Positions 889-37,683 of a DNA stretch of 40,045 nt are shown piece by piece. Location of the stretch: contig JACCZT010000034.1 of the NCBI GenBank assembly GCA_013695785.1, positions 1 through 40,045 on the forward strand, written 5' to 3'. This DNA is from Nocardioidaceae bacterium. Its GTDB lineage: Bacteria > Actinomycetota > Actinomycetes > Propionibacteriales > Nocardioidaceae. A program made the translations under genes and the position numbers. A model generated the notes under the pieces. It was not told the DNA's origin, made no database searches, and worked only from the letters and a program-made list of their open reading frames with translations. Each line of letters begins with the position of its first letter. Position 1 is the first letter of the stretch.

Positions 889-1914
889 ATGGCCAGCAGC
901 TTGATGGGGCGCGACATGGCCGTGGACCTCGGCACCGCCAACACGTTGGTGTACGTCCGCGGCCGCGGCGTGATGCTCAACGAGCCCTCCGTCGTCGCCC
1001 TCAACGCGCAGACCCGCGAGATCCTCGCGGTCGGCACCGAGGCCAAGCGCATGCTCGGGCGGACCCCCGAGGCGATCACCGCGATCCGGCCGATGAAGGA
1101 CGGCGTCATCGCCGACTTCGAGTCGACCGAGCAGATGCTGCGCATCTTCATCCAACGCGTGCACCGCCGCCGCTACTTCGCCAAGCCGCGCCTGGTGGTC
1201 TGCGTACCTAGCGGCATCACCTCGGTCGAGCAACGCGCGGTCAAGGAGGCGGGCTACCAGGCGGGCGCGCGCCAGGTCTACATCATCGAGGAGCCGATGG
1301 CGGCTGCGCTCGGTGCCGGCCTGCCCGTCCACGAGGCCACCGGCAACATGATCGTCGACGTCGGCGGCGGCACCACCGAGGTCGCCGTCATCTCGCTGGG
1401 CGGCATCGTCACCAGCATGTCGATCCGTACCGCCGGCGACGACCTCGACCAGGCGATCATCTCGTGGTTCAAGAAGGAACACTCGCTGATGGTGGGGGAG
1501 CGGACCGCCGAGGAGATCAAGATCGCCGTCGGCTCGGCGTTCCCGCTACCCGACGAGCCCGAGGCCCAGATCCGTGGCCGCGACCTGGTCAGCGGTCTGC
1601 CACGGACGGTCACGGTCGCGACGGCCGAGGTGCGTCAAGCCCTCGAGGAGCCGGTGCAGGACATCGTCGACGCCGTGCGGACGACGCTGGACAAGACGCC
1701 GCCTGAGCTCGCCGGAGACATCATGGACCGCGGCCTGGTGCTCACCGGTGGCGGCGCACTCCTGCGCGGGCTCGACGAGCGGCTGCGACACGAGACGCAG
1801 ATGCCGGTGCACATCGCCGAGGACCCGTTGCACTCCGTGGCGATGGGCGCGGGCAAATGTGTGGAGGAGTTCGAGGCGCTTCGGCAGGTGCTCACCTCCG
1901 AGCCCCGGCACTGA
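889..1914 (+). CDS. mreB: Rod shape-determining protein MreB
   Basis: MreB/actin-fold motifs DLGTANTLVYVRGRG, VVCVPSGITSVEQRAVKEA, MIVDVGGGTTEVAVISLGG; followed by mreC and mreD. Confidence 0.97.
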   Translation: MASSLMGRDMAVDLGTANTLVYVRGRGVMLNEPSVVALNAQTREILAVGTEAKRMLGRTPEAITAIRPMKDGVIADFESTEQMLRIFIQRVHRRRYFAKPRLVVCVPSGITSVEQRAVKEAGYQAGARQVYIIEEPMAAALGAGLPVHEATGNMIVDVGGGTTEVAVISLGGIVTSMSIRTAGDDLDQAIISWFKKEHSLMVGERTAEEIKIAVGSAFPLPDEPEAQIRGRDLVSGLPRTVTVATAEVRQALEEPVQDIVDAVRTTLDKTPPELAGDIMDRGLVLTGGGALLRGLDERLRHETQMPVHIAEDPLHSVAMGAGKCVEEFEALRQVLTSEPRH

Positions 1915-1923
1915 GGCGCGCCC

Positions 1924-2787
1924 ATGCTGATGCGTACCCCGCGACGTGATGACAACCGCTCGCGCACCCGGTTGGTGCTCCTGGTCCTTGCCGCCGTCGC
2001 GGTGATCAGCCTCGACGCCGGTCTGGGTACGTCCTCGCCCGCGCAGCCGGTGCGCGACGCCGCCAGCAGTGTCCTCGGACCGGTCGAGTCCGTCGCGCAC
2101 AAGGCGTTGACTCCGGTACGCGCGATCGGCGACCTCTTCACCACCCGCGCCGACCTGCGCCGCGACAACGACGCCCTGCTCGAGGAGAACGCGCGGCTGC
2201 GCAACCAGGCCAACACCGCAGGCGTCGACACCGCACGACTCGAGGAGCTCGAAGGCATCGCCGACCTGAGCACGGCGAACGGGTTCGAGACCGTGCAGGC
2301 ACAGGTCGTCGCCATCGGCGGGGCGCAGTCGTTCTCGCGCGCCGTGACCATCGACGTCGGCACCGCGCAGGGTGTGCGCCGCGACATGACGGTGCTCAAC
2401 GCCGACGGGCTCGTCGGCCGGGTCGTCGGCGTCTCGCGGAGCAACGCGACGGTCCTGCTCCTGGTGGATGCCCGGTCCACGGTCGGTGCACGGCTGTCCG
2501 GTGACAGCGAGCTCGGGTTCGTACGCGGCGACGGTGACCTCTCCGGTGCCGGCCGGTTGACATTGTCGACCGTCGATGCGGCCGCCGTACCCATCGAGGG
2601 CGACAGCGTGGTTTCGTGGGGCTCGCGCGGGCAGGTGCCGTATGTGGCCGGCGTACCGATCGGCCGGGTCGAGAGCGTAGCCTCCAGCCCGCGGGACCAG
2701 TCGCGCACCGTAACGCTTGCGCCGTACGCGGACTTCTCGGCCCTCGACGTCGTCGGAGTCGTCGTCGCGCGGACGAAGGGTCGCTGA
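1924..2787 (+). CDS. mreC: Rod shape-determining protein MreC
   Basis: N-terminal TM plus coiled coil, MreC core (VVAIGGAQSFSRAVTIDVGTAQGVRRDMTVLNADGLVGRVVGV); position between mreB and mreD. Confidence 0.94.
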   Translation: MLMRTPRRDDNRSRTRLVLLVLAAVAVISLDAGLGTSSPAQPVRDAASSVLGPVESVAHKALTPVRAIGDLFTTRADLRRDNDALLEENARLRNQANTAGVDTARLEELEGIADLSTANGFETVQAQVVAIGGAQSFSRAVTIDVGTAQGVRRDMTVLNADGLVGRVVGVSRSNATVLLLVDARSTVGARLSGDSELGFVRGDGDLSGAGRLTLSTVDAAAVPIEGDSVVSWGSRGQVPYVAGVPIGRVESVASSPRDQSRTVTLAPYADFSALDVVGVVVARTKGR

Positions 2788-2788
2788 G

Positions 2789-3322
2789 ATGTCCGCGATC
2801 CGCCCGGCGCTGGTCGCCGTCTGCGTCATCGTCTGCGTCGTTCTCCAGCTCAGCGTGTTCACGCAGCTGGCCGTTGCCGCGGTCGTGCCCGACATCGCCA
2901 TGGTGTTCGTGATCGCTGCGGCGCTGGCCCGTGGCCCGTCCTACGCGGCCGGCCTCGGGTTCTGCGCCGGTCTGGTGCTCGACCTGGCGCCGCCGGCGGA
3001 TCACACACTGGGTCGCTGGGCCCTGACCTTCGTCATCGTCGGCTACCTCGCCGGGCTCGTCCGCCAGGACACCAACCGCTCGGTGGTCGCCTCGGCCGCC
3101 TGTGTCGCCGCATCGGTCTTTATCGGGACGTCGGTGTTCGCACTGTCAGGCATCGTGCTCGGCGAGAGCGGCGTCAGCATCGCCAGGGCCCTGCAGGTGA
3201 TCCCGCTCGCGGTGTTGTACGACGTCGCTGTCGCGCTCGTCCTGCTTCCCGTCGCGCGCGCCGTCCTGGTCGGGCGGGACAGCGCTCCTGCCCAGAGCCG
3301 CGTGGGGGTTGGTGTCCGGTGA
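2789..3322 (+). CDS. mreD: Rod shape-determining protein MreD
   Basis: Hydrophobic multi-TM protein starting MSAIRPALVAVCVIVC; located between mreC and PBP2. Start refined from ORF 2717 to the ATG at 2789. Confidence 0.9.
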   Translation: MSAIRPALVAVCVIVCVVLQLSVFTQLAVAAVVPDIAMVFVIAAALARGPSYAAGLGFCAGLVLDLAPPADHTLGRWALTFVIVGYLAGLVRQDTNRSVVASAACVAASVFIGTSVFALSGIVLGESGVSIARALQVIPLAVLYDVAVALVLLPVARAVLVGRDSAPAQSRVGVGVR

Positions 3323-5403
3323 CCACCCTGACCCGTGGCCGTTTCGTGGTCATCCAGGTCCTCGTGCTCGCACTCTTCTGCTCGCTGCTGGGTCGCCTGT
3401 GGTACCTCCAGGTCGTCGGTGGCGACAGCTACCGGGCGCAGGCGCAGAGCAACGCCGTGCGGGACGTCATCGTGCAGCCGCAGCGAGGTCTCATCGTCGA
3501 CTCCACAGGTCGGTCACTGGTCGCCAACCGGCTCGCGTGGGTGGTGACGGTGGACCGCTCCCGGCTCGCAGTCCTGCCCACCGCCGAGCAGTCCGCGACG
3601 CTACGCCAGCTCGGCCGCACGCTCGGCCTGCCGTACGGCCAGGTCCTCGCCCAGACCAAGCTGTGCGGAGAGAAGGGTGCGCCCGACGCGGGCCTCTGCT
3701 GGAACGGGTCGCCGTACGAGGCGGTCCCGGTCGCGGCCGACGTCGACGAGGACGTAGCACTGGCCATCGCAGAACGGCCGGAGGACTTCCCCGCCGTTGA
3801 GGTCCAGCAGCAGAACGTCCGGTCCTACCCCACGCCCTACGGCGCCAACGCCGCACACCTGCTGGGCTACGTGACGTCGGTGACAGAGGACGAGTACGCA
3901 GCGGCGAAGCAGGACGACGACACCACGCTCAACGCAGCCTCCCAGGTCGGCCGGTCGGGCCTGGAACGGTCGTACGACAGGTTCCTGCGCGGCCTGCCCG
4001 GGTCGACCGGCAAGTCGGTGGACTCCAGCGGCCGCGTCATCGGCAGCGCGGGCGCGACCCCAGCGCGGCCGGGGGACACCCTCGTGACGAGCATCGATGC
4101 CAAGGTCCAGGCCAAGGCCGAGGACGAGCTGCGTGCGGCGATCATGACCGCACGGCAGACCCACGACGACGTCACCGGTGAGGACTACAAGGCGACGTCG
4201 GGCGCGATGGTCGTGATGGAGGCCAAGACCGGTCGTCTGGTCGCCTCGGCGAGCTACCCGACGTACGACCCCGAGGTCTGGGTCGGGGGCATCAGCAGCA
4301 GGCAGCTCAAGAGCCTGTACTCCAAGGACGCCGGCGAGCCGCTGCTGTCACGCGCCACGCAGGGGCAGCTGGCACCGGGCTCGACGTTCAAGCCCGTCAC
4401 GGCCGCCGGAGCACTCGACAGCGGGTACCCCACCTCCACCGAGCTCGACTGCTCCAGCTCGTTCCAGGTCGGCAACCGGATCTTCAAGAACTACGAGTCC
4501 GCGTCGTACGGGCCGATCGACTTCGCCAGCGCGCTGCAGCTGTCGTGCGACACGTTCTTCTACCGCATCGCCTACGCCGAGTGGCTGCGCCAGGGCGGTG
4601 ACGACCCCGACCGAAAGGATGTCCTGGTCGAGAACGCCAAGAGGTTCGGGTTCGGCCGCCAGACCGGCATCGACCTGCCAGGTGAGGCCAGCGGACGGAT
4701 CGCCGACCGGGCCTGGCGCCGCCAGTACTGGAAGGACAACAAGGACTACTACTGCAAGATCGGCCGCTCGTCGTCGGCGAACGACTACCTGCACCTGTTC
4801 GCCCGGGAGTTCTGCGTCGACGGCTATCTCTACCGTGCCGGTGACGCGGTCAACTTCGCCATCGGCCAGGGCGACACCCTCGTCACGCCGATGCAGCTCG
4901 CGGTCGTGTACGCCGCTCTGTCCAACGGCGGCGCGCTGTTCGAGCCGCGTGTCGCTAAGGCGGTCGTGGACCCCTACGGCGACGTCGTCAAACGGATCCC
5001 ACCGCACCGGGCCGGTTCGCTCCCGATCTCCGATCGGCACCGCGACTACATCGACGACGCCCTGCTCGGCACGGCCAAGACCGGGACGATGGCCTGGAAG
5101 ATGCAAGGCTTCCCGCTCGAGGAGGTGCAGGTGCGCGCCAAGACCGGCACCGCGGAGGTGCAGGGCAAGCAGACCACCGGCTGGGTCGCGACGTACGACG
5201 AGAACTACGTGGTGATCATGATGATGGAGCAGGGCGGCACCGGCTCGGGCAGCTCCGGCGACGCCGTCCGGCACATGTGGGAGGCGCTGTACGGCATCGA
5301 CGGCGATCGGGTCGACCCGGCGGCGTCGCTGCTGCCCGCGGGACAGACGCCGTCGTCGCTGCCGGTCTTCGGCCGCGACGGCACGGTGGAAGCGCCCCGA
5401 TGA
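3319..5403 (+). CDS. mrdA: Penicillin-binding protein 2 (class B transpeptidase)
   Basis: PBP dimerisation domain (QPQRGLIVDSTGRSLVANR), catalytic GSTFKP, SCD and KTGTAE motifs; GTG start overlaps the mreD stop. Confidence 0.95.
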   Translation: MTTLTRGRFVVIQVLVLALFCSLLGRLWYLQVVGGDSYRAQAQSNAVRDVIVQPQRGLIVDSTGRSLVANRLAWVVTVDRSRLAVLPTAEQSATLRQLGRTLGLPYGQVLAQTKLCGEKGAPDAGLCWNGSPYEAVPVAADVDEDVALAIAERPEDFPAVEVQQQNVRSYPTPYGANAAHLLGYVTSVTEDEYAAAKQDDDTTLNAASQVGRSGLERSYDRFLRGLPGSTGKSVDSSGRVIGSAGATPARPGDTLVTSIDAKVQAKAEDELRAAIMTARQTHDDVTGEDYKATSGAMVVMEAKTGRLVASASYPTYDPEVWVGGISSRQLKSLYSKDAGEPLLSRATQGQLAPGSTFKPVTAAGALDSGYPTSTELDCSSSFQVGNRIFKNYESASYGPIDFASALQLSCDTFFYRIAYAEWLRQGGDDPDRKDVLVENAKRFGFGRQTGIDLPGEASGRIADRAWRRQYWKDNKDYYCKIGRSSSANDYLHLFAREFCVDGYLYRAGDAVNFAIGQGDTLVTPMQLAVVYAALSNGGALFEPRVAKAVVDPYGDVVKRIPPHRAGSLPISDRHRDYIDDALLGTAKTGTMAWKMQGFPLEEVQVRAKTGTAEVQGKQTTGWVATYDENYVVIMMMEQGGTGSGSSGDAVRHMWEALYGIDGDRVDPAASLLPAGQTPSSLPVFGRDGTVEAPR

Positions 5404-6602
5404 CGGTCCTGCACGCGCCGCGCGTCGTACGGCGGCACCGGTGGGCCGACCTGGACTGGTGGCTCGTCATCGCCGTCGCGTTGCTCGTGCTCATCGGCAC
5501 CGTGCTCATTTGGTCGGCGACCTCGCACCGTGACGACCTGACCGGTGGCCGCCCGACGGCCTACTTGTCCAAGCAGGGCGTCAACGTCGTCATCGCCGTC
5601 ACCCTCGGCGGCCTCATCGCTGCGACGGACCGCCGGTCGATCCGCGTCTGGGCTCCCCTCATCTACATCGGTTCGGTCGTGGGGCTGCTGCTCGTCTTCG
5701 TGCCCGGCGTCGGGGCGACGATCAACGGCTCCCACTCCTGGTTGGACGTCGGTGGTCTGTCGATCCAGCCTGTGGAGTTCGCCAAGGTCGGCGTGATCGT
5801 GGGGATGGCGCTGGTCCTGGCCGAACGAGCCGAAGCCGGCCTGCGAAGCGTCATGCGTGACTCGGACCTGCTGCCCGCCCTCGCGATCGCCGCTGTGCCG
5901 GCGGTCCTCATCCTGGCTCAGCCCGACCTCGGCTCACTGATGGTCCTGGCCGCCATCGTCTTCGGTGTCCTCGCGATGGCCGGGACCGCCAAGCGTTGGC
6001 TGGGCGCGTTGCTGGCCGTCGGCGTCACCGCCCTGGTGCTCGCCGTGGCCGTCGGGGTGTTGCAGGAGTACCAGCTGTCGCGCTTCGAGGCCTTCGCCGA
6101 TCCGTCCCTGGACCCGCGGGGTGCTGGCTACAACACCATCCAGGCACGCATCGCGATCGGCAACGGTGGCGTGCTCGGCCAAGGACTGTTCCAGGGGTCG
6201 CAGACCCAGAGCGGCTTCGTCCCCGAGCAGCACACCGACTTCATCTTCACCGTCGCCGGAGAGGAGCTCGGGCTCGTCGGGTCCGCCGCCGTCATCATGC
6301 TGCTCGGCGTCGTGCTGTGGCGGTGCCTGCGGATCGCCCGTCAGGCCGACGACCTCTTCGGCCGGCTCGCCGCGGTCGGCATCGCCTGCTGGTTCGGGTT
6401 CCAGTCGTTCCAGAACATCGGCATGTGCCTGGGGATCATGCCGGTGACGGGGGTCCCGCTGCCGTTCGTCTCCTACGGCGGTACGTCGATGTTCGCGTCC
6501 ATGATGGCGGTGGGGCTGCTGCTCAACATCCGCCGCCGGGCCGGTGGGCCCACCGGTCACGGTGTCGTGGTGCGGTCACGCCTGCAGCGCAGCCGCTTCT
6601 GA
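5400..6602 (+). CDS. rodA: Rod shape-determining protein RodA (SEDS glycosyltransferase)
   Basis: SEDS motifs (GSHSWLDVGGLSIQPVEFAKVG, SGFVPEQHTDFIFTVAGEELG, PVTGVPLPFVSYGGTSM); ATGA overlap with the PBP2 stop. Confidence 0.95.
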   Translation: MTVLHAPRVVRRHRWADLDWWLVIAVALLVLIGTVLIWSATSHRDDLTGGRPTAYLSKQGVNVVIAVTLGGLIAATDRRSIRVWAPLIYIGSVVGLLLVFVPGVGATINGSHSWLDVGGLSIQPVEFAKVGVIVGMALVLAERAEAGLRSVMRDSDLLPALAIAAVPAVLILAQPDLGSLMVLAAIVFGVLAMAGTAKRWLGALLAVGVTALVLAVAVGVLQEYQLSRFEAFADPSLDPRGAGYNTIQARIAIGNGGVLGQGLFQGSQTQSGFVPEQHTDFIFTVAGEELGLVGSAAVIMLLGVVLWRCLRIARQADDLFGRLAAVGIACWFGFQSFQNIGMCLGIMPVTGVPLPFVSYGGTSMFASMMAVGLLLNIRRRAGGPTGHGVVVRSRLQRSRF

Positions 6603-27977: not shown

Positions 27978-28849
27978 CACCGCGGGTAGGCGTCGTCGTC
28001 CTCACCCAGGGCAAGCGTCCGGACGACCTGCGCGTCGCTGTGGAGTCCGTGCTGGCGCAGTCTGCGGTCGACCTCGACGTGGTGTGCGTGGGCAACGGCT
28101 GGGAGCCGGCCGGACTGCCCGGCGAAGTACGCACACTCGCCCTCGCCGAGAACGTCGGGATCCCCGCGGGACGCGCGGCAGGGGTGCCGCACGTGAACGG
28201 CGAGCTGCTGCTGTTCATCGACGACGACGCGCGACTGCTGGACGACGACTTCCTGTCGGACGTCGCTGCGAGGTTCGCGGCCGATCCTCACCTCGGCATC
28301 GTGCAGCCGCGGGTCGACAGCCCCGGGCCCACCTCGGCGCCCACGCGGTGGATCCCGCGGATGCGCAAGGGTGACCCGAGGCACTCCTCGCCGGTGTTCT
28401 CGCTGTGGGAGGGCGTGCTGGTCGCCCGCCGCGCCGCCTACGACGCCTCCGGCGGCTGGGGGGCGCCGTACTTCTACGCCCACGAGGGCATCGAGCTGGC
28501 ATGGCGGGTCTGGGACGCCGGTTACACCGTCTGGTACGCCGGCGACCTGCGCTGCGAGCACCCGGCGATCGACCCCGCCCGACATCGTGCCTACTTCCGC
28601 CTCAACGCGCGCAACCGGGTGTGGTTGGCCCGCCGCAACCTCCGCTGGCCGTTCTCCTGGCTGTACGTCGGCTCGTGGACCGCCGTCCAGCTGGTCCGTA
28701 CGGTACGGCGGCCCGCGACGTGGGGCAGCCTGAGACCGTGGTGGGGCGGCTGGCTCGAAGGGTGGCGCAGCGACCCGGGCGGTCGCCGCCCGCTGCGCTG
28801 GTCGACGATCTGGCGGATGACCCGGCTCGGCCGCCCACCGGTCATCTAG
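27974..28849 (+). CDS. Glycosyltransferase family 2 protein
   Basis: GVVVLTQGKRPDDLRVAVESVLAQS...IPAGRAAGVPHVNGELLLFIDDDARL (GT-A, DDD); GTGA overlap with the preceding stop. Confidence 0.9.
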   Translation: MTPRVGVVVLTQGKRPDDLRVAVESVLAQSAVDLDVVCVGNGWEPAGLPGEVRTLALAENVGIPAGRAAGVPHVNGELLLFIDDDARLLDDDFLSDVAARFAADPHLGIVQPRVDSPGPTSAPTRWIPRMRKGDPRHSSPVFSLWEGVLVARRAAYDASGGWGAPYFYAHEGIELAWRVWDAGYTVWYAGDLRCEHPAIDPARHRAYFRLNARNRVWLARRNLRWPFSWLYVGSWTAVQLVRTVRRPATWGSLRPWWGGWLEGWRSDPGGRRPLRWSTIWRMTRLGRPPVI

Positions 28850-28895
28850 GCTGCCGAGACCTAGGCTGCCGACATTCAGACTGCCGACATTCAGT
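28846..28895. repeat. 15-bp-period degenerate tandem repeat between convergent genes
   Basis: ctaggctgccgagac|ctaggctgccgacat|tcagactgccgacat|tcagt; contains the stop codons of both converging genes. Confidence 0.85.
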
Positions 28896-29847
28896 ACGTG
28901 TCGTAGTCGTCGTCATCGTCGTCGACGCGGCGCGGCCGTTCGGCCTTCTTGTCCTTGTTGCGGGTCTCGCGTGAGCTGGTGCCGTCGTTGCTCTCGCCAA
29001 CGGTGGAGGGGTCGTCGGCGATTGCCCGCTCGCGGTCCTCCTTGCGCTTGCTGACCTGCTCGCGACGCAGCTCGGCGGCCTCGTCGGAGTCGGCGTGGTA
29101 CTGCTCGAGCACCTCGGCGATGGGCGCGTCCATGATCAGCTTGCCTTCTTGCATGTACAGGCCCCGGCTGCAGAAGCGCTTGAGGTCCCGCGCGTTGTGC
29201 GAGACGAGGAACAGCGTGCGTCCGTCGTCGATGAGCTCCTCGATGCGTTCCCAGCACTTCTCGCGGAATGCCCGGTCGCCGACGGCGAGGACCTCATCGA
29301 CCAGCAGGATGGGCTCCTCCAGGCGCGAGACGACGGCGAACGCGACTCGTACCCGCATGCCAGAGGACAGGTGCTTGTAGGGGGCGTCCAGGAAGTTCTC
29401 GATCTCGGCGAACTCGACGATGTCGTCGAAGCACCCGGCGACCTGCTCCTTGTTCATGCCGTGCAGCCCTGCGGTCAAGGTGATGTTGTCGCGCACGGTC
29501 AGGTCCCCGACGAAACCGCCGGTGATCTCGATCAGCGGCGCGACCCCACCGCGCACCTCCACCGTGCCGTCGTCGGGCATCAGGACGCCGGCGAGCGCCT
29601 TGAGCAGGGTGGACTTGCCCTGGCCGTTGCGTCCGATCACCCCGATCGCCTCACCGTGCTGGACGTCGAAGGTCACCCGGCGCAGCGCCCAGAACTCCCC
29701 GGCCCGCACCCCGGACTGGCCCTTGAACAGCAGGTCGCGAACACTACGGTTGCGTCGCGACTTGTGGAAGCGGACCGAGAGGCCGTCGACCGAGATGACG
29801 GGCTCGGCAAGCGCGCTGTCGGTAGCGCCGGTGGTCTGGGTGGGCAT
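28891..29847 (-). CDS. ABC transporter ATP-binding protein, Wzt/TagH-like polysaccharide exporter
   Basis: Walker A GVIGRNGQGKSTLLKALAG, signature HLSSGMRVRVAFA, Walker B EPILLVDEVLAVGD; next to a TagG-like permease. Start ATG 29847. Confidence 0.94.
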   Translation of the reverse strand: MPTQTTGATDSALAEPVISVDGLSVRFHKSRRNRSVRDLLFKGQSGVRAGEFWALRRVTFDVQHGEAIGVIGRNGQGKSTLLKALAGVLMPDDGTVEVRGGVAPLIEITGGFVGDLTVRDNITLTAGLHGMNKEQVAGCFDDIVEFAEIENFLDAPYKHLSSGMRVRVAFAVVSRLEEPILLVDEVLAVGDRAFREKCWERIEELIDDGRTLFLVSHNARDLKRFCSRGLYMQEGKLIMDAPIAEVLEQYHADSDEAAELRREQVSKRKEDRERAIADDPSTVGESNDGTSSRETRNKDKKAERPRRVDDDDDDYDTY

Positions 29848-30683
29848 CAGATCTCCTTGAGAGCCGTGCGCTCGAGGCGGGCGAACACGAACCAGCCGAG
29901 GGCGAACACCGCCGTCGAGATGGCGGCGGCGATGCCGACGTGCCCCCAGTTCATCAGGTCGCCGAAGATTCCAGATCGGTAGAGCTGCAACAGGTCGCCC
30001 ATCGGGTTGACCACGTAGATCCACTGGTACGACTCCGGCACCCGGTCGACGCTGTAGAGGACCGGTGAGGCGTAGAAGCCGAGGCGGAGCATCACCTTGA
30101 TGAGGCGTTCGAGGTCACGTACCAGCACGATCAGCGGGGCCAGCAACAACCCGATACCGGTGAGCAGCACGAACTGGATGGCCATGGCCAGCGGCAGCGT
30201 CAAGATGTAGATGTTGACCGACTTCTGGTAGATCAGCATGAACGCCACGAGCACCGGCAGGCTCATCACGTACTCGCAACCCTTGGACATCACGACCTGC
30301 AAGATCCAGATCTCGCGTGGCAGGTCGGTGGACTTGACGAGCTTGCGGGAGGCGCGAAAGGCCTTGGCCGACTCGTTCACCGAACTGGTGAACCAGTTCC
30401 AGGCGAGCACGCCCGCGACCAGGAAGATGATGTACGGCTCCTCGCCGGCGCCTCGGGGGAACACCTGCGTGAACACGAACCAGTAGACCGAGCACATCAG
30501 CAACGGGTCGAGCACTGTCCACACGTAGCCGAGGGCCGATCCGGCGTAGGTGACCTTGAGGTCGCGTACGACGAGGAGCCACAAGATCTTGCGGACCCGC
30601 CAAACCGCTCGCGCTCGCGCTATCGGCGAGCGCTGGTCACTTCGGTTCAACGGCACATCCTCGTTCGGGCCCACGGGGGGCAC
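29847..30683 (-). CDS. ABC transporter permease, Wzm/TagG-like
   Basis: ABC-2-type hydrophobic profile (LRVVRDLKVTYAGSALGYVWTVLDPLLMCSVYWFVFTQVF in translation; YASPVLYSVDRVPESYQWIYVVNPMGDLLQLYR); ATGA overlap with the ATPase start. Confidence 0.93.
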   Translation of the reverse strand: MPPVGPNEDVPLNRSDQRSPIARARAVWRVRKILWLLVVRDLKVTYAGSALGYVWTVLDPLLMCSVYWFVFTQVFPRGAGEEPYIIFLVAGVLAWNWFTSSVNESAKAFRASRKLVKSTDLPREIWILQVVMSKGCEYVMSLPVLVAFMLIYQKSVNIYILTLPLAMAIQFVLLTGIGLLLAPLIVLVRDLERLIKVMLRLGFYASPVLYSVDRVPESYQWIYVVNPMGDLLQLYRSGIFGDLMNWGHVGIAAAISTAVFALGWFVFARLERTALKEI

Positions 30684-30772
30684 ACGTCAGCGACTTACTG
30701 TACGCACCTGACCGGGCGAAGCCACGACAACCCGGCTCCGAGGGTCGGTCAGGGCAAGTTACCCTCGTGGGC

Positions 30773-32179
30773 GTGAGCACCCTACGCAACGTCGCGGTCG
30801 TCCTGGCCGGAGGAACCGGATCGCGGGTCGGACTGTCCATCCCCAAGCAGCTGATCAAGATCGCCGGCAAACCCATCATCGAGCACACGATCGCGACGAT
30901 GAACGCCTCGCCGCTCATCGACGAGATCATCGTGATGATGACGCCGGGGCACCTCGACCCCGTGCGCTCCGTCGTCTCCAAGGGCGGCTACGACAAGGTC
31001 ACCCAGATCCTCGAAGGCGCTGAGACCCGCAACGGCACCACCAGCAAGGCGCTCGACGCGCTCGGTGAGGAGGAGTGCAACGTGCTCCTCCACGACGCCG
31101 TACGCCCCCTGGTCTCGCAGACGATCATCGCGGAGTGCGTCGCCGCGCTCGCCGACTACGAGGCGGTCGACACCGCGATCGCCTCGGCCGACACCGTCGT
31201 CCAGGTCGATGAGAGGACCGGTGCCATCTCCGACGTCCTGCCGCGTCACCTGTTGCGCCGCGGCCAGACGCCGCAAGGGTTCCGGCTGTCGGTGATCCGC
31301 AAGGCGTACCAGAACGCCGCGAAGGACCCCCACTTCGTGGCGACCGACGACTGCACCGTCGTGCTGCGCTACCTGCCCGAGGTCCCGATCGCGGTCGTCA
31401 ACGGCCACGAACGCAACATGAAGGTGACCGAGCCGATCGACATCTACATCGCCGACAAGCTGTTCCAGCTGACCTCGGCGGACCGTCCGGCGAGCCTGAG
31501 CGACGAGCAGTACCGCGAGGCGCTGGAGAACAAGATCGTGGTCGTCTTCGGCGGGTCGTACGGCATCGGCGGCGACATCGCCGACCTCGCCGAGAAGCAC
31601 GGCGCGACGGTCCACCGGTTCTCCCGCTCGTCGACCAAGACCCACGTCGAACGGCGCGGTGACGTGGCCGCAGTTGCCCAGCAGGTGCTCGCCGAGAGCG
31701 GACGCATCGACTTCGTCGTCAACACCGCCGGCGTGCTGCCGCGCGGCGAGCTGTCCGAGACCAGCGAGGAGACGATCTACAACGCCACCGAGGTCAACTA
31801 CCTCGCCCCGATCTTCATCGCCCAAGAGTTCTACCCCTACCTCGCCGAGACCGGTGGGTCGCTGCTGCTGTTCACGTCGTCGTCGTACACGCGGGGGCGC
31901 AGCGGCTACTCGCTGTACTCCTCGGCCAAGGCCGCCGTCGTCAACCTGACCCAGGCGCTGGCCGACGAGTGGGCGGGCCAGGTGCGGGTCAACTGCGTCA
32001 ACCCCGAGCGCACCGGCACGCCCATGCGTACCAAGGCCTTCGGCGACGAGCCTGCCGGCACGCTGCTCACCTCGCAAGAGGTGGCGGTCAAGTCCCTCGA
32101 CGTCCTCGTCTCGGCCCAGACCGGCCACGTGATCGACATCCGGCGCGGGGACGGCCCCGCGGCCATCGTCAACGGTTGA
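30773..32179 (+). CDS. Bifunctional cytidylyltransferase/SDR oxidoreductase, Bcs1/TarI-TarJ-like CDP-ribitol synthase
   Basis: N-terminal IspD/TarI-like VVLAGGTGSRVGLSIPKQLIKIAGKPIIEHTI and LLHDAVRPLVS; C-terminal SDR VVVFGGSYGIGG...YSLYSSAKAAVVNLTQAL. Start taken at GTG 30773, 7 nt after TACCCT. Confidence 0.88.
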   Translation: MSTLRNVAVVLAGGTGSRVGLSIPKQLIKIAGKPIIEHTIATMNASPLIDEIIVMMTPGHLDPVRSVVSKGGYDKVTQILEGAETRNGTTSKALDALGEEECNVLLHDAVRPLVSQTIIAECVAALADYEAVDTAIASADTVVQVDERTGAISDVLPRHLLRRGQTPQGFRLSVIRKAYQNAAKDPHFVATDDCTVVLRYLPEVPIAVVNGHERNMKVTEPIDIYIADKLFQLTSADRPASLSDEQYREALENKIVVVFGGSYGIGGDIADLAEKHGATVHRFSRSSTKTHVERRGDVAAVAQQVLAESGRIDFVVNTAGVLPRGELSETSEETIYNATEVNYLAPIFIAQEFYPYLAETGGSLLLFTSSSYTRGRSGYSLYSSAKAAVVNLTQALADEWAGQVRVNCVNPERTGTPMRTKAFGDEPAGTLLTSQEVAVKSLDVLVSAQTGHVIDIRRGDGPAAIVNG

Positions 32180-32200
32180 AGCACGCATAGGGTGCGGAGC

Positions 32201-33184
32201 ATGTCCACCGACCCGTCGTACCCCGGAGTCTCGGTGTTCATGACGGTGCGCAACGAGGAACGCCATCTACGGACCTGTGTCCGGCAAATCCTGGCGCAGG
32301 AATACGCCGGCCACCTCGAGCTCGTCGTCGCGGTCGGACCGTCGACCGACGCGACCGCGCGGATCGCCCGCGAGCTCGCCGCGGAGCGGCCGCAGGTGAC
32401 CGTGGTCGACAATCCCTCCGGCTTGACCCCCAACGGCCTCAACGCCGCCATCGCCGCCGCCAAGCACGACCTGCTCGTGCGCGCCGACGGGCACGCGCTC
32501 TTCCCGCCCGGTTACGTCGCGGAGGTCGTACGGGTCCTCGACGCGACCGGGGCCGCCAACGTCGGTGGTCGCATGGTGCCCGAGGGCACCAACGCCTTCG
32601 CCCGGGCGGTGGCGAAGGCTATGTCGTCTCCCTTTGGGATCGGGGGGGCGGCCTTCCACACCGGTGGCGACGCCGGACCGCAACCGACGGTCTACCTCGG
32701 CGCGTTCCGGCGCGATGCCATCGAGAAGGTCGGCGGGTACGACGAGTACTTCACCCGCGCCCAGGATTGGGAGCTCAACCACCGGATCCGCGAGTCCGGC
32801 GAAGTCGTCTGGTTCGAACCCGGGCTCGCCGTCGTCTACCACCCACGCGACACGTTGAAGGCGTTCGCCCGCCAGCAGTTCCATACCGGTGGCTGGCGTC
32901 GCAAGGTCATGAGCAAGCACCCGGAGTCGGTGTCGTTGCGTTACCTGGCGCCGCCGCTGGTGGTGCTGGCGTCGGTGCTCGGGGTACTGGTAGGGCTCGT
33001 CGGGGTGTTCACCTGGCCTTGGTTGATGCTGGGGCTCGCGGTCCCGCTGGTCTACCTGCTCGGTGTGCTCGTCATCGGGTGGTTCGAGGGCTGCGATCTC
33101 GACCCACCGGCCCGCCGCCGGTTGCCGCTGGTGATGGCGGTGATGCACCTGTCATGGGGCGCAGGGTTCTTGCGCAACGCCTGA
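32201..33184 (+). CDS. Glycosyltransferase family 2 protein with C-terminal TM segments (ExoA-like)
   Basis: VSVFMTVRNEERHLRTCVRQILAQEYAGHLELVVAVGPSTDATARIA; LLVRADGHALFPPGYVAEVV; C-terminal hydrophobic helices. Confidence 0.9.
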   Translation: MSTDPSYPGVSVFMTVRNEERHLRTCVRQILAQEYAGHLELVVAVGPSTDATARIARELAAERPQVTVVDNPSGLTPNGLNAAIAAAKHDLLVRADGHALFPPGYVAEVVRVLDATGAANVGGRMVPEGTNAFARAVAKAMSSPFGIGGAAFHTGGDAGPQPTVYLGAFRRDAIEKVGGYDEYFTRAQDWELNHRIRESGEVVWFEPGLAVVYHPRDTLKAFARQQFHTGGWRRKVMSKHPESVSLRYLAPPLVVLASVLGVLVGLVGVFTWPWLMLGLAVPLVYLLGVLVIGWFEGCDLDPPARRRLPLVMAVMHLSWGAGFLRNA

Positions 33185-33185
33185 G

Positions 33186-34385
33186 TCAGAGCAACGGCAG
33201 CGGGTTGTCCGCCGCGTAGGCGATCGCCTCGTCGACGGCGGCGTGGAAGCGCGCCGTGCTGGCCCGGTGGGCGGTCTCGCCGAAGTAGTGGTGGACCAGT
33301 GCGTCGTCGATGGTCGCGGACCGGCTGTCCTTGAGCAGCAGAGCCAGGACGTCACCCACGGCGTCGGCCCCCGACGTCGCGATGGTCGGCACCTCGCTGA
33401 GGAACGTGGACTCGGGGAAGAGGGCGTGCTCGTTGTCGGGCACGGTGACGAGCAACGGCTTGCCGGTCGCCAGCCAGTCGTAGGCGACCGAGGAGACGTC
33501 GGTGATGCAGACGTCGGCGAAGTCCCATTGCCACCCGTAGTCACCGGTGTCGACCAGGTGGCGTTCGCCGTGTCCGTGCAGGATCGCCCGGATCTCGCGG
33601 TCGGCTTGGGCGTGGGCGGCGGAGTTGAACCCCGATCGCGGGTGCGGCCGGTACACGATGCGCCAGCGCGGGTCGGCCGCCAGCTGTCGCATCATCGCGA
33701 CGCCGTGGCTGGCGACGGATCCATAGCCCATGCTCGGGCGGTCGCCCTCCCAGGTGGGGGCGTAGAAGACACGGGTGGCGCCGTCGACCGCCCACGCCGG
33801 CGCCCCGGCGTACTCGTGGTCGAGCTGCGGCCGGCCGATCAGGCGTACGTGGGCGTCGGCGTCGAAACCGCGCAGATGCGTGGCGATGCGCTCCTTGGCT
33901 GCCTCGCCGGCGACGAAGACGCGGTCGTAGGCCTTGTTCTGGTTGGAGATGCTCGAGTCCTTGTCGCTCTCCCCGTGGCCGAGGTAGACGTGGACGGGGG
34001 AGGCGAAGCGGATCATCCGGAAGTTGAGCTCGACGTGGTTGACGTAGAGCACCACGGGGACGGCGTGTGCGCGGACGAGGCGTTCGAGGGCGATGCTTCC
34101 CGGAGCAAACGCGACCGGGAGGGAGCTCACCTCGAGCACCTTCGTCCCGGTGTCTGGCCGGGAGACGATGACGAAGACCGGGCGGGTCTGGTGGAGACGT
34201 TCCAGCGGCCGCAGCCAGTGCTCGAGCTGGTAGACGTTCTCCGGGCCGGTAGAGAAGAAGACCGCGATCGAGCCGGCGGCGATGTCGCCGCTCCCGACGC
34301 TGCGCCGCGCGAAGCTCTTCGCGCGGACCCGGTTGGTGACGAGCCGGCCGCCCTCGCGGGTGTATCTCCGGGCTCGGCTCAGCAC
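33186..34385 (-). CDS. CDP-glycerol glycerophosphotransferase (TagB/TagF-like) family protein
   Basis: VYLGHGESDKDSS, VFYAPTWEGDRPSMGYGSV, YRPHPRSGFN, ITDVSSVAYDWLATGKPLLV. Start refined to GTG 34385, preceded by TAGGGT plus 7 nt. Confidence 0.88.
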   Translation of the reverse strand: MLSRARRYTREGGRLVTNRVRAKSFARRSVGSGDIAAGSIAVFFSTGPENVYQLEHWLRPLERLHQTRPVFVIVSRPDTGTKVLEVSSLPVAFAPGSIALERLVRAHAVPVVLYVNHVELNFRMIRFASPVHVYLGHGESDKDSSISNQNKAYDRVFVAGEAAKERIATHLRGFDADAHVRLIGRPQLDHEYAGAPAWAVDGATRVFYAPTWEGDRPSMGYGSVASHGVAMMRQLAADPRWRIVYRPHPRSGFNSAAHAQADREIRAILHGHGERHLVDTGDYGWQWDFADVCITDVSSVAYDWLATGKPLLVTVPDNEHALFPESTFLSEVPTIATSGADAVGDVLALLLKDSRSATIDDALVHHYFGETAHRASTARFHAAVDEAIAYAADNPLPLL

Positions 34386-34429
34386 GTCTGCCACCCTACT
34401 GCGATCAGAGCATTCGGCTGACTCGGTCG

Positions 34430-34852
34430 CTAAGGGCTGTGATCTGTGGCGAGCCAGGCGGCTCTTCTGCGGTTCGAAGCCTGAGCGAGCCAGGCGTCCT
34501 GCACCACCTCGGCCAGCTCCTGGTACGTCAGCTCGCCGATCCGGCTGGCCCGCAGGAGCACCGAGCGGTGGCCGTCGAAGTGCGCGGTGGTGAAGAACGG
34601 CGAGTGCGAATCCTGGACCAGCGCTTGCTTCTCCGCCTCCGACTCCACCCAGAAGACGATCACGTCCGAGTAGCGCTCCCCGGTCTGGGGATCACACGCA
34701 TCCGGTCGGGGGGTGCGGAAGAACACGAAGGACTTCCCGCCCACCTGGTAGACGGGATTCTCGCTCGACCGCCGGTCAACCGTTACGTGGGGCATGGCGA
34801 GAGCTAGCTCGTGAACGTCCTCCACCCGTGCGAACCGCGACTCCGCGTCCAT
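34430..34852 (-). CDS. MmcQ/YjbR-family protein
   Basis: VEDVHELALAMPHVTVDRRSSENPVYQVGGKSFVFFRTPRPDA...FFTTAHFDGHRSVLLRASRIGELTYQELAEVVQDAWLAQA. Start ATG 34852, preceded by TACCCT plus 6 nt. Confidence 0.85.
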   Translation of the reverse strand: MDAESRFARVEDVHELALAMPHVTVDRRSSENPVYQVGGKSFVFFRTPRPDACDPQTGERYSDVIVFWVESEAEKQALVQDSHSPFFTTAHFDGHRSVLLRASRIGELTYQELAEVVQDAWLAQASNRRRAAWLATDHSP

Positions 34853-34869
34853 GCTGACAGGGTATGCAG

Positions 34870-36765
34870 TCACGCCCGGTGCGGCGCGCGTTCGCGTCCG
34901 GCCCTGTCGCACAGGGCGTCGACGGCGTGTTGGAAGGTCGCGAAGGTACGCGAGGTGGCGGGACCGAGCAGGTACTCCGCGAGACGCGAGCGATCGGTCA
35001 TGCGGTCGTCAGGGGCGTCCCCGGCGACGACGGCGACGAACTCCTCGATGCCGGTGCCGTTACCCATCACGGTTGTCCCCGCGGCGGCTGAGGGGAAGTC
35101 GGCGACGAACCGGTCGGCGTCGGTGTGGGTCGGGTTGAACACCGCGTACGGTTTCTCGCTGGCGACGAAGTCCGACAGGACGCTGGAGATGTCGGCGACC
35201 AGGGCGCTGGACTCGTTGAAGCACGACACCAGGGTCGGGTCGCTCGCGCCGGGCTGGACCACGACGTGCGCAGCGGGGTCCAGTCCCTCCCAGAAGGAGC
35301 GGTCCACCAGTGCGTGTGCTGCCTGCTCGGCCACTGCCGAGCCTTCCGGGTCGAGGGTGACGGACAGGGTCGAGGTGTACGCGCCGTCGGTCCGCCCCGA
35401 CGTGTTGGCTGCCTCGATGCGCCGCACGATCTGCAGATGCGCGTCGCGGACGCGGGGGTCGCGGGCTCCGATCAGCGGGTGCGGACGATAGACGAGACGC
35501 AACCTGCCGGGCATCGACAAGACGTGTTCGACCAGCCGGTCACCGATCGCGAGCACCGAGGAGTACGCCTGTCCGGAGTTCCACCCTTCCCAGGTGGGGG
35601 CGTACAACACGGTCGGTACCGGAGGCGGCGGGCGCTGCGAGGCCGTCTCGACGTCGGTGATCTGAGGCCGGCCGACGCGGACGAAGGCGTCGTCGGCGAT
35701 GCCGAGGGCGGCGCGGCGGTAGCGGTCGGCACCGGCCTCGCCAGCGACCCAGATCTCGTCGTACACGCGCGCGTAGGGGATCGCTGACGCGCTCTTGTCG
35801 CTGTCGCCGTGCCCGATGAACGCGCTCATCAGGGTGGGCAACCGGAGGATGTGGATGTTGTTGCCGATGTTGGTGGGAAACAGCGCCACTCGGACGTGGG
35901 ACAGGTCGAGGCTCATCAGGTCCGAGCCGCTGGCGGCGCAGATGACCGGGAGGCTCGTGGCGTCGAGCGCATGAAAGAGCTCGTCGTCGCGCAGCACGAT
36001 GAGGGTGCGCTGCCGCAGGCGTTCGAGGGTCGGGAGCCACACGTTCACCTGGTACGCGGAGGTCTTCGAGCCGCTGAGGTGGAGCACGACCTCCGGTCGG
36101 TAGTCGTCGATGAACGTCTGGATCGGGACCATCTTGGGTTTGCGTACGCCGTCTCCCCGCGCGGTCCGGGAGGCGAGGACGTCGGCGACCGGCCCGATCA
36201 CCAGCATCATCTGCAGGGTCACCGCGAGGGTACCGAGCACCCACACGACCCAGCTGCCCTCGGTCACGCAGATGGCCGGTACGACCACCGCCAGCTGCGC
36301 CGGAACTTCTCGACGCCAGCGGTGGGGCCTGATGCCCCACACCTCCCGGGCCCCGGCGGCAGTATCGACGTTGCGGGTGAGTACCGGGCGCGAGTGCGCC
36401 TTGCGGAGCTGGGCGACGCAGAATGCGTGCGCACAGTGCAGCAGCAGGTAGGCGCCGAAGACCACGGCGAAGGCGACGGCGGGCCACCGCGACTCCCACA
36501 GGCCGACCCCGGCGAGGGCGACGACGCCACCACGCAGCGCGGCACGGGTGGTGGGGCCAAGGTCCGCCTGACCGAGCAGCCGCCCGAACGTCGGCGCGTA
36601 CCTCTGGACCAGCGGCTCGCACAGGACTGAGGCGGCAAGGGCCGCGATGGTCACCAGCTGCCAGTGTGCGAGGGCGCCGACCAGCGCGAGCAGGGACGTC
36701 GCAGCGAGCAGCGCCACCGATCCGAGCTCACCGGAGGCCCCGGCCCGGACAAGGCGTCTGCGCAT
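34870..36765 (-). CDS. CDP-glycerol glycerophosphotransferase-like protein with N-terminal multi-TM domain
   Basis: N-terminal ~210 aa hydrophobic; C-terminal TagF-like FIGHGDSDKSASAIPYARVYDEIWVAGE, LYAPTWEGWNSGQAYSSV, YRPHPLIGARD, LVADISSVLSDFVASEKPYAVF. Confidence 0.87.
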   Translation of the reverse strand: MRRRLVRAGASGELGSVALLAATSLLALVGALAHWQLVTIAALAASVLCEPLVQRYAPTFGRLLGQADLGPTTRAALRGGVVALAGVGLWESRWPAVAFAVVFGAYLLLHCAHAFCVAQLRKAHSRPVLTRNVDTAAGAREVWGIRPHRWRREVPAQLAVVVPAICVTEGSWVVWVLGTLAVTLQMMLVIGPVADVLASRTARGDGVRKPKMVPIQTFIDDYRPEVVLHLSGSKTSAYQVNVWLPTLERLRQRTLIVLRDDELFHALDATSLPVICAASGSDLMSLDLSHVRVALFPTNIGNNIHILRLPTLMSAFIGHGDSDKSASAIPYARVYDEIWVAGEAGADRYRRAALGIADDAFVRVGRPQITDVETASQRPPPPVPTVLYAPTWEGWNSGQAYSSVLAIGDRLVEHVLSMPGRLRLVYRPHPLIGARDPRVRDAHLQIVRRIEAANTSGRTDGAYTSTLSVTLDPEGSAVAEQAAHALVDRSFWEGLDPAAHVVVQPGASDPTLVSCFNESSALVADISSVLSDFVASEKPYAVFNPTHTDADRFVADFPSAAAGTTVMGNGTGIEEFVAVVAGDAPDDRMTDRSRLAEYLLGPATSRTFATFQHAVDALCDRAGRERAPHRA

Positions 36766-36771
36766 CGTCGC

Positions 36772-37635
36772 TCAGTGCTCCAGGTCGGCGGCGTCGGTGG
36801 CGTCCGCGGTGGGAGCGCGCAGGCGCGTCGAGGCCATGATCGTCGCGAAGTGGCCGACGACGGCGAGCACCGACAACGGCGCGAGCGCGAGGAGGAGAAC
36901 CTGGGTTCCGGCGACGGAGGTGTCGACGATGATGGCGACGACGGTGGCGGCGAAGGCGAGAAGGGTCAGCTCGACCGAGTGGTACAAGCGGTGGAAGGGC
37001 AGGTAGCGGACAACGCGGCGCAGGCGCGAGACCAGGCCGGGGCGAGGGGCGGTAGCGGCGGCGGTGTCGGGGAGACGGCCCATGCCGGCGAACGCACGGG
37101 AGACGTGCACCATGTCGTTGAGCGCCTTGTTGAGGAGGATGACCACGGCGAGCAGGGCGCCGAGCGTCGTCCACTCGTAATGGCCGCTGATGTCGCCCAC
37201 GCCGCCGGCGGCGCGGACCCCGAGCGCGATGGGGATGAGGGACTCGGTGGTGTAGTGGCCGACCTTGTCCAAGAACACGCCGGCGGGGGAGAACGTGCCT
37301 CGCCAGCGGGCGACCTCGCCGTCGCAGCAGTCGATGAGCTGCTGCAGCTGACCGAAGAACACTGCGAGCGCGACACCGGCGATGCCGGGGATCAGCAGTG
37401 ATCCCGCCGCGCACCAACCGGACAGGATCATCAGGTAGGTGACGGCGTTGGCGCTGAACCCGAGGCGGACCAGTGGGCGGGAGAGGTACGGCGAGATGTC
37501 GCGCAGGTACAGGTCAGCAGTCCAGTGCTCGGCGCTCTTGCGTGCCCGCACCTCCGGCGGTTGGGCGATGGCCCGGAACTCCGCGAAGCTCGGGTTGGCC
37601 GGGCGGGCTGGGCCTGGTGGGTTCGGGCGGGGCAC
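36772..37635 (-). CDS. CDP-alcohol phosphatidyltransferase family protein (variant active site)
   Basis: DCCDGEVARWRGTFSPAGVFLDKVGHY matches D-xx-DG-xx-AR-x8-G-xxx-D-xxx-(H in place of D). Start GTG 37635, preceded by TAGTTT plus 7 nt. Confidence 0.9.
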   Translation of the reverse strand: MPRPNPPGPARPANPSFAEFRAIAQPPEVRARKSAEHWTADLYLRDISPYLSRPLVRLGFSANAVTYLMILSGWCAAGSLLIPGIAGVALAVFFGQLQQLIDCCDGEVARWRGTFSPAGVFLDKVGHYTTESLIPIALGVRAAGGVGDISGHYEWTTLGALLAVVILLNKALNDMVHVSRAFAGMGRLPDTAAATAPRPGLVSRLRRVVRYLPFHRLYHSVELTLLAFAATVVAIIVDTSVAGTQVLLLALAPLSVLAVVGHFATIMASTRLRAPTADATDAADLEH

Positions 37636-37683
37636 GGCGGTCAAACTAGCACGGGGCGCAGCCCGTACCCGCGTCCCGAAGCG

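Follow-up and report, generated by a model that had tools for sequence, protein, structure and literature searches.

The window, a 40,045-nt stretch of DNA from a Nocardioidaceae bacterium, carries on its minus strand, at positions 36772 to 37644, a gene for a membrane protein with the fold of the CDP-alcohol phosphotransferases (CDP-APs) and with His in place of the fourth signature aspartate (D4). The assignment came from a match to Pfam family PF01066 (CDP-OH_P_transf; E = 1.9e-5), an AlphaFold2 model, and Foldseek. The open reading frame starts at TTG (37644) or GTG (37635) and encodes 287 to 290 amino acids; residues are numbered here from the GTG. Translation of positions 36772 to 37635 on the minus strand gives ...LIDCCDGEVARWRGTFSPAGVFLDKVGHYTTESLIP..., that is, D-x2-D-G-x2-A-R-x8-G-x3-D-x3-H, and translation and alignments place the signature D1xxD2G1xxAR-x8-G2xxxD3xxxH at 37255 to 37332 (minus strand). 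The first three aspartates (D1, D102; D2, D105; D3, D123) are intact, and the D4 position is occupied by H127, encoded by CAC at 37255 to 37257. Retranslation gave the same residues (DCCDGEVAR-x8-GVFLDKVGH) and the codons GTC GGC CAC TAC at the D4 position, and in a profile-profile alignment the His fell on D4 without a gap. The preliminary description of this region had reported a minus-strand CDP-AP with His at D4 and the other aspartates kept, and the translation, the PF01066 match, and the alignment all bear this out. The PF01066 score (25.5 bits) was just above the gathering score of 22, and this was the only domain found in a Pfam search, with DUF5941 absent. NCBIfam matches were to archaetidylinositol phosphate synthases, IPCT-DIPPS, and phosphatidylinositol phosphate (PIP) synthases, all far below threshold; the PIPSynth score, for example, was 19.4 bits against a cutoff of 170. 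Matches to designed pentatricopeptide repeat proteins in a phmmer search were discarded because they reflected a short repeated match to VTYLMILSGWCAAGSL.

A 6-bp gap separates the CDP-AP gene from the next gene, which encodes a TagF-like polymerase with a hydrophobic N-terminal part (34870 to 36765, minus strand; PF04464, E = 2e-5); after it are a YjbR-like open reading frame and a gene for a second TagF-like CDP-polyol phosphotransferase (33186 to 34394, minus strand; PF04464, E = 2.1e-8). Next come two genes on the opposite strand, encoding a GT2 glycosyltransferase (32192 to 33184, plus strand; PF13641, E = 4.3e-20; PF00535, E = 7.3e-20) and a CDP-ribitol-synthase-like fusion of an IspD-like cytidylyltransferase with a short-chain dehydrogenase (IspD-SDR; 30767 to 32179, plus strand; PF01128 and PF00106), whose best matches include the ribitol-5-phosphate cytidylyltransferase structures 4jis and 6xhp. 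Beyond these are genes for a TagG-like ABC-2 type permease (29847 to 30683, minus strand; PF01061, E = 7e-15) and a TagH-like ABC ATPase (28891 to 30024, minus strand; PF00005, E = 1.3e-19). A genome search located another GT2 gene at the far end of the cluster (27983 to 28849 for the matched part, plus strand), with 59% identity to the GT2 that usually adjoins CDP-APs of this type. The YjbR-like frame, taken from its first start codon (34430 to 34912), lies on the same strand as the first TagF-like gene and shares about 43 bases with the end of that gene. Elsewhere in the window, positions 889 to 6602 were recognized by eye as a cell-shape gene cluster headed by an MreB-like protein.

The AlphaFold2 model, made from a 44-sequence input, had a mean pLDDT of 89.8 and a pTM of 0.86. 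We compared the predicted fold with solved CDP-APs, as the preliminary description had envisaged. The confident Foldseek matches were all CDP-APs, led by the archaeal protein AF2299 (4o6m, 4o6n, and 4q7c) and followed by PIPS, IPCT-DIPPS, and PgsA1; the probability was 1.00 for AF2299, PIPS, and IPCT-DIPPS, and TM-scores of the predicted model to solved CDP-APs were moderate, at about 0.4 to 0.6. A profile built from 25 homologs likewise matched AF2299 best (E = 1.2e-14), then IPCT-DIPPS (E = 9e-8) and PgsA1 (E = 2e-4), so that AF2299 and IPCT-DIPPS ranked above the phospholipid synthases. AF2299, the closest solved structure by both measures, shares D1 to D3, G1, A, R, and G2 of the signature but has Asp at D4 (LDGVLDR), where the window protein and its relatives have His or Ala, with Tyr as the next residue in nearly all of them. 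By descent and fold, the window protein is a member of the CDP-AP superfamily, which makes most membrane phospholipids. We withhold the label of canonical CDP-AP because D4 of the catalytic signature is missing, although the protein most likely works like one.

In characterized CDP-APs, D4 is a ligand of the second metal and the presumed base (PMC6506517; PMC8633023), and it is counted among eight absolutely conserved residues of the superfamily (PMC4634129). Formally, its replacement in a single protein could reflect a sequencing error or a one-off mutation, but His-bearing homologs rule this out; we found no support for it and give it next to no chance. Close homologs with Asp, which the preliminary description had named as a ground for refutation, were looked for, and close homologs instead carry His: the two closest (75% identity) do, and so do all 80 of the relatives found in a collection of named genomes (including Mumia, Agromyces, Leifsonia, Cryobacterium, Brevibacterium, Arthrobacter, Curtobacterium, and Nanopelagicales) and nearly all others. 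Among 211 sequence copies, comprising all the collected sequences with the N-terminal EHW motif of this clade and including some loci fetched twice, the D4 residue was His in 194, Ala in 17, and Asp in none. The preliminary description had proposed checking whether the His is conserved in homologs: Asp never occurs at this position, but His is not universal in the clade. Paired with the residue four positions on (D4+4), these copies divide into His/Glu (188), Ala/Asp (17), and His/Asp (6). Of 83 motif matches in this DNA that do not belong to the clade, 81 had Asp at D4, and the remaining 2 look like chance frames. A census of DNA patterns for the His motif returned three chance matches without EHW (L155, L156, and L162); the counts were therefore taken from alignments and from translated motifs accompanied by EHW. 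In a search within Actinomycetota, the clade was found across that group, and matches of some kind occurred in 148 of the 395 genomes in the class. The clade is a widespread branch of the CDP-APs and is apparently undescribed in the open-licence literature.

For alignment and tree building, the clade was thinned to 57 sequences. D102, D105, G106, A109, R110, G119, and D123 were invariant in this set, as were E36, H37, W38, R45, S48, T66, E107, R180, E222, and S269. Also kept is an N-x-x-T sequence in TM1, corresponding to the cytosine-binding P(D/N)xx(T/S) motif of CDP-APs (PMC4634129). The D4 residue was His in 52 of the 57, and the residue after it was Tyr in 54, with Thr, His, or Trp in the others. 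Ala at D4 was confined to some Streptomyces strains plus one relative and was always accompanied by Asp replacing Glu at D4+4; in the thinned set, positions 127 and 131 were the only ones at which all Ala-type proteins part from the His-type consensus. Actinobacterial PIP synthases (MtPgsA1 and RsPIPS) share with the clade the fold, the motif up to D3, and an acidic residue at D4+4. They differ in that their D4 Asp is needed for activity, their donor is CDP-diacylglycerol, and D4 is followed by an Arg, which in Mycobacterium tuberculosis PgsA1 (R94) is needed for inositol phosphate (PMC6506517) and is Tyr in the window protein. The invariance of the donor and metal residues, together with the change of this Arg to Tyr, suggests that the donor side has been retained and the acceptor side altered, and loss of the Arg speaks against an inositol-phosphate acceptor. 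The preliminary description had raised a possible link to a lipid or inositol anchor, which is speculative.

To place the clade, we built a tree from the 57 thinned sequences and 56 Asp-type CDP-APs, most of which came from the same genomes. A branch supported at 100/99, with a long stem, set the clade apart, and no Asp-type protein fell inside it; the placement of the clade among the CDP-APs is unsure, as the tree program warns of long branches meeting there. In a tree built without the two trait columns, the distribution of Ala requires two changes. Grouping of the Ala sequences as a single clade was rejected (AU test, P = 0.002), a value that is optimistic, as the test was chosen after the first tree. 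Ala therefore arose at least twice, although a single gain plus a single return to His would cost the same number of changes. This phylogeny bears on the possibility that the window protein is an ordinary phospholipid-type CDP-AP (such as a PIP synthase or a phosphatidylglycerol phosphate synthase) that tolerates the substitution. The NCBIfam matches to archaetidylinositol phosphate and PIP synthases point in that direction, far below cutoffs as they are, but the clade is separate and strongly supported on its long stem, an ordinary Asp-type CDP-AP is encoded elsewhere in the same genome (L226), the neighboring genes are those of cell wall polymers, and the Arg after D4 is lost. We consider such an identity very unlikely. 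The preliminary suggestion of a divergent protein within a TagF-like, CDP-polyol gene cluster is instead upheld by the PF04464 neighbors, the IspD-SDR gene, and the conserved clade.

Gene neighborhoods were counted at 159 loci, within about 4.7 kb and with uneven sampling that includes many Microbacteriaceae. The GT2 gene that usually adjoins these CDP-APs was present at 140 of the 159 loci, and an ABC ATPase gene was present at 95; the same GT2 type was also found in all seven genomes that were searched whole, that of the window included. The preliminary description had proposed testing whether the His tracks with TagF-like and Bcs1-like neighbors. A specific association of this kind did not hold up: in contrast to the GT2 and ATPase genes, IspD-SDR occurred at only 7 of the 159 loci and TagF-like genes at roughly half. 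LCP genes were also frequent near these CDP-APs, alongside ABC exporter, TagF-like, and nucleotidyltransferase genes. A recurrent, Streptomyces-type order is an Asp-type CDP-AP fused to DUF5941 (CDP-AP-DUF5941), nucleotidyltransferase, a glycerol-1-phosphate dehydrogenase-like protein, the D4-less CDP-AP, GT2, ABC permease, and ABC ATPase, exemplified by CNQ36_RS31075 to CNQ36_RS31105 of S. fungicidicus. Over all loci, the glycerol-1-phosphate dehydrogenase-like gene was found at 45 of 159 and the Streptomyces-type nucleotidyltransferase gene at 44 of 159. The former, as seen at L131 (8410 to 9618, plus strand; between the nucleotidyltransferase and the D4-less CDP-AP), scores 237 bits against PRK00843, below the 413-bit cutoff. 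Its presence in Streptomyces-type operons hints at a CDP-alcohol derived from glycerol-1-phosphate in bacteria. One passage in the literature describes a Streptomyces CDP-alcohol phosphatidyltransferase family gene as syntenic with tagG, tagH, and araM, and that passage is silent on the active site (PMC13118837). The Streptomyces-type operon holds both His-type (L143, L185, L187, and L191) and Ala-type (L131, L183, L189, L193, and L195) proteins, which argues that His is not a strictly required base across the clade. Further Ala-type copies in Streptomyces (L190, L192, L194, and L196) were found without the usual partner genes nearby, the L190 stretch being short, and may be paralogs with another role.

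D4 is the textbook catalytic residue, and members of a clade that lacks it must either manage without it or be something other than normal enzymes. Substitution of Asn for D4 in M. tuberculosis PIP synthase leaves substrate binding but nearly abolishes activity (PMC4634129), and by analogy proteins that lack D4 could have lost catalysis. The window protein might then be a CDP-alcohol-binding or scaffolding subunit partnering an Asp-type CDP-AP-DUF5941 or a TagF-like polymerase. The occurrence of Ala at D4 in Streptomyces is consistent with this, as is the presence of a CDP-AP-DUF5941 gene within about 4.7 kb at 57 of the 159 loci. These fusions (PF01066 plus PF19365; e.g., L131, 6018 to 7820, plus strand, and L126, 7385 to 9178, plus strand) are actinobacterial members of the same superfamily, often encoded beside the D4-less CDP-AP, but they have Asp at D4 followed by Arg, carry extra domains, and lie outside the clade in the tree. 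Searches of the open-licence literature found no paper on DUF5941 and none joining CDP-ribitol with CDP-alcohol. Against a noncatalytic role, the remaining signature residues are all invariant in the thinned set, and no full-length CDP-AP-DUF5941 was found in the genome of the window (81% complete) or in seven others (G005, G021, G369, G037, G046, G149, and G171; 99 to 100% complete), so the partner is not required there; for the group of the window, we rejected an obligate partnership on these grounds. We judge loss of catalysis to be unlikely.

The conserved donor site and the gene neighborhood make an active CDP-polyol transferase the best reading. As the best explanation of these sequence, clade, fold, and neighborhood data, we infer, with close to an even chance of being right, a CDP-polyol:acceptor phosphotransferase that would act in synthesis of a teichoic acid-like polymer, its donor and metal site intact and its acceptor side rebuilt. 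D1, D2, and D3 with Mg2+ would bind a CDP-polyol, for which CDP-ribitol and CDP-glycerol are the likeliest candidates in this cluster, and the polyol phosphate would be moved to an acceptor made or extended by the partner GT2, with release of CMP. This transfer would be a priming or linking step, after which the TagF-like enzymes would lengthen the polymer and the ABC transporter would export it. The identities of donor and acceptor are guesses from neighboring genes. A soluble CDP-polyol donor, as proposed here, has a counterpart in IPCT-DIPPS (4mnd), a CDP-inositol:inositol-phosphate transferase; its nucleotidyltransferase is fused, whereas that of the clade is often a separate gene nearby, and it differs further in having Asp at D4 and serving another pathway.

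Within a CDP-polyol transferase, the His at D4 would probably bind the acceptor and, where present, deprotonate it, perhaps together with Glu131, which lies a helical turn further along; in Ala-type proteins, which would work without it, Asp131 or water could take over. A role for His in activating the acceptor is plausible in the window protein by analogy with CHPT1 and CEPT1, whose catalytic His-Glu pair in TM3, near the phosphate (His133 and Glu129 in CHPT1), resembles the His and acidic residue of the clade. Mutation of either residue almost abolishes activity of the Xenopus CHPT1, and the pair can join in proton transfer within the CDP-AP fold (PMC10182977). In those enzymes, however, the His is an extra residue adjoining D3, with D4 still present (G2ExxD3HxxD4), whereas the clade His replaces D4; the window sequence GVFLDKVGH lacks the Glu after G2, the His after D3, and D4 itself, and so the parallel is functional only. 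An acidic residue at D4+4 is not peculiar to the clade, since Asp or Glu is found there in PIPS-like and DUF5941 proteins of the Asp type too, and this weakens the idea that the clade invented a His-Glu dyad. Moreover, the replacement of His by Ala in Streptomyces operons of the same makeup indicates that a base role for His is not general. These alternations would also fit transfer that needs no general base, the acceptor being a phosphate (e.g., polyprenyl phosphate or a phosphorylated sugar lipid) and already an anion. Removal of the Asp would then take away a repelling charge, His would help to hold the phosphate, and Ala would be tolerated. That no acidic residue occurs at D4 in the clade, that His and Ala alternate within one operon type and the Ala-type proteins differ consistently only at positions 127 and 131, and that Tyr stands in place of the inositol phosphate-binding Arg of PgsA1 (PMC6506517), as in a rebuilt acceptor pocket, are all consistent with such a reaction. 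The retention of His in most of the clade, however, suggests a positive role. Furthermore, we know of no CDP-AP that uses a phosphate oxygen as the nucleophile, and this want of precedent weighs against the base-free reaction, which we regard as unlikely. More doubtful still is its corollary, that such transfer would yield an intermediate of a new kind, a lipid-linked polyol diphosphate or something similar, in the synthesis of actinobacterial cell wall polymers.

Whichever chemistry applies, a large natural clade without D4 offers a direct test of the role of this residue, since His and Ala versions occur in equivalent operons. The clade also points to a step in the synthesis of cell wall polymers in Streptomyces, Microbacteriaceae, and their relatives, including organisms used in biotechnology.
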